Source: a virus. From it: DNA of 29,112 nucleotides. This document shows, piece by piece, positions 27,865 to 29,048 of the stretch. The notes beneath the pieces were generated by a model. That model was not told the DNA's origin. It searched no databases and worked only from the letters and a program-made list of their open reading frames with translations. The stretch's first letter is position 1. Each line of letters begins with the position of its first letter. The stretch is taken from the IMG/VR virus record IMGVR_UViG_3300017728_000073, positions 1-29,112 of that record. The stretch is one strand, 5' to 3'. The position numbers and the translations under genes were made by a program.

Positions 27865-28170
27865 TTAGGATAATTCAGTAGGGTCGTACATACTGTATTT
27901 AACTGTAATTTCTTCTCCAACTTCAATGTCTCTTAAAAAATATAAATACCTTACTCTTTGCACTTCTACGATTTTAGCATTAGGTTCTTCACTGTGATTT
28001 ACAAAACCACCAAGTGGAGTTCTAAACAACTTTTTACTTAAAGGGTCAGTAACATGAGTTATGCCAGCATTATATCCTTTTTCTATTTTCTCTGATGTAA
28101 ATAATCCCAAACCATCTATATCAGATTCTTTGATAGTTAAAAATTTTGGTAGTGGTCTATAGTTTTCCAT
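27865..28170 (-). CDS. Mini SET-domain protein (putative protein lysine methyltransferase)
   Basis: A 101-residue protein consisting of little more than a SET domain. Seen motifs: SDIDGLGLFTSEKIEKG at 16-32 (the opening G-x-G segment), GGFVNHSEEPNAKI at 54-67 (the NHS-x-x-PN motif that binds S-adenosylmethionine), and DIEVGEEITVKYSMYD at 81-96 (the GEE-[IL]-x-x-x-Y closing motif). Post-SET cysteines are absent, as in short bacterial and viral SET proteins such as the PBCV-1 enzyme. The target is unknown. No clear Shine-Dalgarno precedes the ATG; instead the upstream region carries hairpins. Confidence 0.85.
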   Translation of the reverse strand: MENYRPLPKFLTIKESDIDGLGLFTSEKIEKGYNAGITHVTDPLSKKLFRTPLGGFVNHSEEPNAKIVEVQRVRYLYFLRDIEVGEEITVKYSMYDPTELS

Positions 28171-28262
28171 TTATTAACTATAACATCTAATAGTTTTAGA
28201 TACAGCTCTCCTAAGAGAGCCGATGATGGGAGGAGGTCGGTGTGGATGCCGACAATTTAACT
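28171..28262 (-). other. GC-rich intergenic stretch with three hairpins
   Basis: Between the 72-residue gene and the SET gene are three stem-loops in a row: GTCGG/CCGAC (28236-28253, loop 8), GCTCTC/GAGAGC (28205-28220, loop 4) and ATCTAA/TTAGAT (28185-28201, loop 5). Bases 28203-28253 are clearly GC-richer than the surroundings. No U-run follows the strongest stem on either strand, so a simple terminator is not a good fit. A leader RNA structure, a processing site or a packaging-related site are possible. Confidence 0.4.
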
Positions 28263-28481
28263 TTACCTCTTAATAGAAAAACCTGTGGTATTTGACAATG
28301 CAGGGTAACTAGATAAAACCACAAAAGAAATCTGTTGAATTGTTTCAAGTGAAGTTAAATTACTAGAAAGTTTAAATGTATCTACTACTTGTTTATCTTT
28401 TATCATTTCAACTAATACTTTTTCTGAATTTTTTGGTATTTGTTTCGTTTTGAATCTGATGCCGCCGAGAATATAATCCAT
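28263..28481 (-). CDS. Hypothetical protein (72 residues)
   Basis: A small protein I do not recognise, starting MDYILGGIRFKTKQIPKN and containing VLVEMIKDKQVVDTFKLSSN. It looks like a compact alpha/beta protein with no membrane segment or zinc motif. It is the first minus-strand gene after the divergent LexA-type-box region, so it may share regulation with the plus-strand gene. No Shine-Dalgarno is seen before the ATG; leaderless translation, common in Actinobacteria, is possible. Confidence 0.6.
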   Translation of the reverse strand: MDYILGGIRFKTKQIPKNSEKVLVEMIKDKQVVDTFKLSSNLTSLETIQQISFVVLSSYPALSNTTGFSIKR

Positions 28482-28572
28482 AGTTTTACAACTGTATCAC
28501 AAAAAAAATTTTTAATATGTCTTTCAATTTAATACTATAAATATAGAACATTTGTTCTAAAATAAATAGATT
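28482..28572. promoter_or_regulatory. Divergent promoter region
   Basis: This 91-nt AT-rich gap separates the only plus-strand gene from a minus-strand gene, so it must serve at least one and probably two promoters. For the plus strand, TACTATAAAT (28533-28542) offers a -10 that would place the start point around 28548. On the minus strand, TTAGAA and TAGTAT are spaced 17 nt apart across the LexA-type box. Both -35 matches are weak. Confidence 0.45.
28544..28559. promoter_or_regulatory. LexA/SOS-type operator
   Basis: TAGAACATTTGTTCTA is a perfect inverted repeat with 7-bp arms and a 2-bp centre. Its core GAACATTTGTTC fits the Gram-positive and actinobacterial LexA box GAAC-N4-GTTC. It overlaps the predicted transcription start of the plus-strand gene, 13 nt before its ATG, the right place for repression. 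Confidence 0.65.
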
Positions 28573-28722
28573 ATGGATTATTTAATTGGATTTCTTTTAG
28601 GTTATTTTTTAAAAGAAGCTATCAGATTTATTAAAAGAATAAGCGAATACGATTGGGAAAATCGTGTCGTATATAAAGATGAGTGGGAATCCATACCTTT
28701 CAGTGAGGACGACTTACCTTAA
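28573..28722 (+). CDS. Small membrane protein (49 residues), the only plus-strand gene
   Basis: ATG at 28573 opens a 49-residue frame beginning MDYLIGFLLGYFLKEAIRF, a short hydrophobic N-terminal segment followed by a basic boundary (RFIKRIS) and an acidic hydrophilic tail ending FSEDDLP. This is the pattern of a single-span membrane protein with its C-terminus inside. It runs opposite to all other genes and overlaps the end of whiB by 9 nt, tail to tail. A LexA-type box lies 13 nt upstream. There is no strong Shine-Dalgarno. Possible roles include a host-damage-induced lysis helper, antiholin or superinfection-exclusion peptide; nothing in the sequence decides between them. Confidence 0.6.
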   Translation: MDYLIGFLLGYFLKEAIRFIKRISEYDWENRVVYKDEWESIPFSEDDLP

Positions 28723-29025
28723 TAAATCTCCTAAGGAATCATCTTCATCCTTAACAGGTTGCATTTTTCTTTCTTTACGTATTGCTCTGCGTTCCCGTTC
28801 TGATTTACCACCCCAAATACCAAATCTCTCACCTCGTTCAAGTGCCTGTTCTAAACAAGGCTCTTTTACTGGACACTCGTTACAGATTGCCTTAGCTTTT
28901 TTTGTAGAACTACCTCGTTCTGGAAACCATTCATCTGCGTTAAGTTCTGGATAAACAACAGTATTGCAAGCGGCGTCTGAATACCACTCAGGAATACCTA
29001 ATACTTCTGCTAATAAGCTAGCCAT
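28714..29025 (-). CDS. whiB: WhiB-family iron-sulfur regulator
   Basis: From the ATG at 29025 the product is 103 residues starting MASLLAEVLGIPEWYSDAAC. It has the four WhiB cysteines (spacing C-x27-C-x2-C-x5-C, in DAAC, AIC, NEC and EPC), which bind a [4Fe-4S] cluster, then the GIWGG turn and a basic stretch (SERERRAIRKERK) that contacts DNA. Wbl proteins bind the primary sigma factor and change promoter choice; phage copies such as TM4 WhiB interfere with host Wbl function. A longer form from a TTG at 29043, with AAGG upstream, is also possible. This gene is the strongest indication of an actinobacterial host. Confidence 0.93.
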   Translation of the reverse strand: MASLLAEVLGIPEWYSDAACNTVVYPELNADEWFPERGSSTKKAKAICNECPVKEPCLEQALERGERFGIWGGKSERERRAIRKERKMQPVKDEDDSLGDLLR

Positions 29026-29048
29026 ATAAAGAACTCTAAACAAATTTA

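Follow-up and report, generated by a model that had tools for sequence, protein, structure and literature searches.

A putative host LexA operator at a small membrane protein gene of a presumed actinobacterial phage

LexA bound at a promoter blocks RNA polymerase, and RecA-driven self-cleavage of the repressor frees the promoter. That phages use the LexA of their host is established, the Bacillus tectivirus GIL01 being an example (PMC4551915, PMC6182141), and others are cited in PMC9437464. Alphaproteobacterial phages have been described that are under the control of CtrA, a situation termed "lytic deferment" (PMC9437464). Actinomarinales phages with WhiB have also been described (PMC7771536, PMC3861242), and neither paper mentions a LexA site. 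Our search of the literature on WhiB, LexA and phages found no LexA site at a phage whiB gene or at a membrane gene of the lysis-cassette type. Thus, LexA use by phages is known, while the arrangement presented here appears to be undescribed.

The DNA analyzed here (the window), 29,112 bases long, is an IMG/VR virus record in its entirety and is linear. Its gene content is late (tail, capsid, portal, terminase, HNH, Zn-ribbon, SET, 72-aa, 49-aa and whiB), and the contig represents the late half of a genome. The 49-aa gene and whiB sit at the window end, where they converge and overlap tail to tail by 9 nt (Table 1). An earlier note on this DNA had described the 49-aa gene as the only plus-strand gene, which is true within the window, but is partly an effect of where the contig ends; the early genes that lie past whiB in the relatives are co-oriented with the small gene. 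The window WhiB has the four cysteines and the G-I-W-G-G motif of its family, and C20, C48, C51, C57 and GIWGG are invariant across 13 phage proteins.

Table 1. Features at the end of the window
Feature	Position	Strand	Basis
Putative host LexA operator, TAGAACATTTGTTCTA	28544..28559	.	recA identity, syntenic conservation, matrix score
Putative -10 of the small gene, TAAAAT	28558..28563	+	overlaps operator end; placement shared with relatives and part of host lexA promoters
49-aa small membrane protein, MDYLIGFLLGYFLKE...SEDDLP	28573..28722	+	80 relatives, invariant residues, predicted helix
whiB-family transcription regulator	28714..29025	-	PF02467 E=7.7e-21; phrog_472 E=2e-25
Putative -10 of leaderless whiB, TAGAGT	29033..29038	-	sequence; inferred
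72-aa protein, first late-operon gene after whiB	28263..28481	-	conserved in 12 records
72-aa gene, putative -10 of its own, TACAGT, TG one base before	28491..28496	-	sequence; inferred

Between the 72-aa and Zn-ribbon genes lies a phage-encoded SET-domain protein (PF00856, E=8.6e-9; window 27865-28170, minus strand), which is common in relatives. The space between the 72-aa and SET genes (window 28199-28253) holds an extremely conserved non-coding element, GTCGGCATCCACACCGACCTCCTCCCATCATCGGCTCTCTTAGGAGAGCTG in the minus-strand sense. Its 30-nt core occurs exactly in 84 IMG/VR contigs, always upstream of terminase genes, and two hairpins form when the element is folded (z -3.2), with variation in the second stem that takes the form of compensating changes (CTCTC/GAGAG, CTCTTC/GAAGAG, CTGTCC/GGATAG). 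It had no match in Rfam; it might mark a site of packaging or act as a leader RNA.

The 16-mer that the earlier note called a perfect palindrome is present, with 7-bp arms, although its non-palindromic TT centre is unpaired. The GAAC-N4-GTTC core was seen once in the window, compared to 0.23 expected, and at least once in 21 of 100 shuffles; taken alone, the core is weak evidence, being only mildly unusual. What makes the box compelling is the comparison across relatives and host. When the window was scored with a 16-bp matrix built from host recA and lexA operators only, the box reached 25.6, compared to 9.3 for the second-best site in the window and 18.0 for the top of 300 simulated windows.

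A profile search with the phage WhiB returned only actinobacterial relatives, largely Acidimicrobiia, and CGAAC-N4-GTTCG-type boxes were found at most of the lexA promoters examined in that class. As the presumed-host set we used a single order of 42 Acidimicrobiia genomes of ≈1 Mb and 28–32% GC, a size and base composition that fit Actinomarinales as described in PMC7771536. Among these presumed Actinomarinales, all 30 recA loci had the box in their promoters, ≈65 nt before recA, and all 28 scored lexA loci had it exactly or with one mismatch. The window sequence TAGAACATTTGTTCTA is the recA operator of three genomes (L336, L338 and L339), and its reverse complement is the recA operator in 13 more. 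The claim that the core is the actinobacterial SOS box was thus borne out by identity to the presumed host's recA operators, and the earlier proviso that the host might use a different box fell away. The WhiB, the base composition and the operator itself indicate that the host of this marine phage is probably to be sought in Actinomarinales, which are very small bacteria of the ocean. A direct link through the phage terminase was also sought, and gave only distant matches in the 42 Actinomarinales-like genomes.

The recA operator comes in two variants among the genomes of the order, TAGAAC..GTTCTA and TCGAAC..GTTCGA (L329–L358), and the phage boxes show both, a possible marker of host group. 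Besides LexA, most of the ≈1-Mb Actinomarinales-like genomes (L278–L292) hold a second, UmuD-like S24 protein.

Using the 72-aa protein, WhiB and the terminase as queries, we recovered syntenic relatives of the locus. The box is in place in seven of nine, as TAGAACAAATGTTCTA in L086, L096, L097, L098 and L100, TCGAACAAATGTTCTA in L091 and TCGAACATTTGTTCTA in L106, and the ATG follows it by 12–13 nt. These boxes share 13–15 of 16 letters with that of the window (more when the opposite strand is read), against a flank identity of 58–74% and a small-protein identity of ≈50%. The palindrome is therefore kept against diverged flanks. In the other two (L092 and L093), the small gene is kept and an extended -10 replaces the box. 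Loss of the palindrome beside retained flanking genes, which the earlier note had named as evidence against its proposal, was accordingly found in L092, L093 and some phages that are more distant; the other seven syntenic records do not show it. Judged from homologues of the small gene alone, conservation would appear to be refuted, with the box absent from 78 of 80 homologues and present only in the near-identical contigs L001 and L002, but the syntenic loci gave the opposite answer; the boxless homologues lie mostly in other phages or positions and have an extended -10 ≈7 nt before the ATG.

The claim that the box lies over the promoter of the small membrane protein also stood, in that it overlaps a putative -10 and does so in orthologous loci. 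The geometry of box over putative promoter is the same in the relatives and in part of the host lexA promoters, as seen when the phage L096 sequence (TTTTAGAACAAATGTTCTAATATTGAGAGCTATG) is set against the host lexA promoter of L266 (ATTAGAACATATGTGCTAATATGGAGTATG). Because of the placement of the -10, the small-gene transcript is predicted to start at or next to the ATG and to be essentially leaderless. A general promoter scan did not pick up the proposed small-gene promoter. The box is very probably a host LexA operator, set in a promoter that resembles the lexA promoter of the host.

The same operator recurs beyond the window arrangement. Across 75 related records, the neighbourhood of the small gene and whiB (62 kb) contains 36 GAAC-N4-GTTC sites and the remaining 507 kb three, a local enrichment of ≈98-fold, and 24 of the 33 records with enough sequence have a site at the locus, although many records are closely related, and their counts are not counts of independent events. 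Three arrangements were distinguished: the box lies before the small gene, as in the window; directly before a leaderless whiB, filling the gap to a TACAGT -10; or between a terS-like HTH gene and whiB, 88–165 nt ahead of the aligned start of the latter. In L123, L125 and L132, the sequence before whiB is TCGTACATATGTTCGA. A second sample of 80 records, picked through an unrelated conserved element, had a host-type box in 18 of the 26 records holding whiB and its upstream region, and none in the 717 kb searched downstream of the conserved element. Some phages with whiB carry no box, and in the window lineage there is none upstream of whiB. The suggestion of an SOS-linked phage module is thus borne out in a larger form than proposed, with sister phages placing the same operator before whiB.

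Many of the related contigs (L102–L168) end no more than ≈180 nt upstream of whiB, some of them (L149 and L159) exactly at the box, perhaps because the genome physically ends there (cos) or because assemblies commonly break at this point.

The 49-aa reading frame proved to be real and conserved, with 80 relatives in which M1, D2, G6, F7 and G10 are invariant. A single helix is predicted for residues 2–39, followed by a flexible acidic tail. The gene belongs to no Pfam or PHROG family, and Pfam, PHROGs and Rfam name neither it nor its leader. In the window it adjoins whiB, whereas its homologues in other phages sit in lysis cassettes, next to genes for a holin (phrog_443) and an amidase endolysin (phrog_1493). 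A membrane or lysis role is our best guess for the protein, since homologues elsewhere head such gene sets; the lysis role put forward earlier is weakly favoured by this gene neighbourhood, which is its only basis.

The family heads lysis-type cassettes in L029, L012, L044 and L053 (around 6001), and these homologues mostly have an extended -10 ≈7 nt ahead of the ATG, which points to transcripts without a leader. Different reading frames, of 52–62 aa, occupy the small-gene slot in L101 (4867-5043), L108 (2601-2759) and G311 (37466-37654); those of L101 and L108 have no membrane helix, yet share an identical LTEDDLP tail.

We consider it likely, on sequence grounds, that a host LexA operator gates the small membrane protein by DNA damage. 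In an undamaged cell, host LexA would sit on the box and keep the gene off, the operator being placed as in host lexA promoters, in which it adjoins or overlaps the -10 and transcription begins at the ATG or right beside it. RecA filaments formed on damaged DNA, whether from sunlight or from phage nucleases acting on host DNA, would then trigger LexA self-cleavage and derepress the gene; the nuclease-like genes of the relatives might themselves provoke the SOS response. The likeliest outcome would be a membrane or lysis-related activity timed by SOS in damaged or late-infected cells, and in sister phages whiB would come under the same LexA control. LexA binding, repression and induction are predictions from the sequence, as are the identity of the host and the function of the protein.

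That the box is a chance palindrome without function has next to no probability: the core turns up in about one-fifth of shuffled windows, but a chance origin is ruled out by conservation against the diverged flanks and the 98-fold local enrichment, and the host-matrix score exceeds that of all 300 simulations. Another regulator, such as a phage-encoded HTH protein, might bind the box, and the terS-like HTH gene upstream of whiB would be a source for one; this is very improbable, however, given that the box is identical to host recA and lexA operators and that the variation of its outer bases (TA or TC) mirrors that among the host operators. It is hardly to be expected, either, that the operator acts on the divergent 72-aa gene and the late operon. 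The box does lie between two divergent genes, but its distance to the small-gene ATG is fixed, and the 72-aa gene has an extended -10 of its own (TGaTACAGT), 10 nt before its ATG and 47 bp (≈50) from the operator, which argues against the shared control that had been suggested.

Two readings accept the operator and differ in what it does. LexA might gate a whiB-centred locus in which the boxed gene varies by lineage, so that what is conserved would be the timing of WhiB, with the small membrane gene as an exchangeable passenger, recruited secondarily in the window. The box precedes whiB in most sister phages, directly or 88–165 nt upstream, and the slot in other lineages holds a different small reading frame with the same EDDLP tail; in the window lineage, however, the box lies over the small-gene promoter and the whiB promoter is separate and unboxed, and we regard this reading as unlikely. 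We are similarly doubtful that this is a temperate phage, or one that resides like a plasmid, with LexA as a GIL01-like lysogeny repressor and damage starting the lytic cycle. GIL01 needs no integrase and uses host LexA (PMC4551915, PMC6182141), and a prophage is known in Actinomarinales (PMC7771536), but there is a single box here, at the small gene or whiB. No LexA box was found at a main lytic or lysogeny operon promoter, and no host-type box elsewhere. Neither a tyrosine integrase, a resolvase-type recombinase nor an S24 repressor was found in 24-34 records, some of them fragments and possibly incomplete, so that the absence is provisional. Since the searches turned up neither integrase nor S24 repressor, the likeliest reading appears to be a phage that does not integrate and whose expression at this locus is gated by damage. 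More tentatively, and with somewhat less than even confidence, we propose that non-temperate marine actinophages read LexA as a damage sensor during lytic infection, timing WhiB or a lysis-type membrane protein, and that the operator moves between genes at one locus.

If true, this would give UV and other kinds of DNA damage a direct link to the gene expression of phages whose hosts are small marine actinobacteria of high abundance, and SOS control of whiB genes in phages would become open to testing. The operator variant would give a sequence clue to the host group of uncultured phages. The analysis also defines the SOS operator of Actinomarinales-like genomes, which went unmentioned in the related literature that we found.

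A nucleotide search against cultured phages gave a single short match, to a Pelagibacter phage. The locus shares a phage-borne whiB with the WhiB-bearing actinophages, those of Actinomarinales also being low GC marine contigs. In the five cultured WhiB actinophages examined, by contrast, whiB is part of an operon and overlaps the adjoining genes, and none of the five has an SOS box at a whiB promoter of its own; Bernal13 has one GAAC-N4-GTTC, inside coding sequence. Compared to the actinobacterial LexA/SOS regulon, the 16-bp operator is the same, and for lexA so is its placement relative to the -10 and the ATG, but the boxed gene here is phage-borne and is no repair gene. The CtrA-controlled phages likewise have sites for a host regulator before uncharacterised phage genes and so read the state of the host (PMC9437464), although there it is CtrA and the cell cycle, in other hosts, and here LexA and DNA damage. 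GIL01 also has host LexA sites in a phage promoter, but it is temperate, its main lysogenic promoter contains several boxes, and it has a cofactor of LexA, gp7, whereas the present locus has one box and no lysogeny genes were found alongside it.
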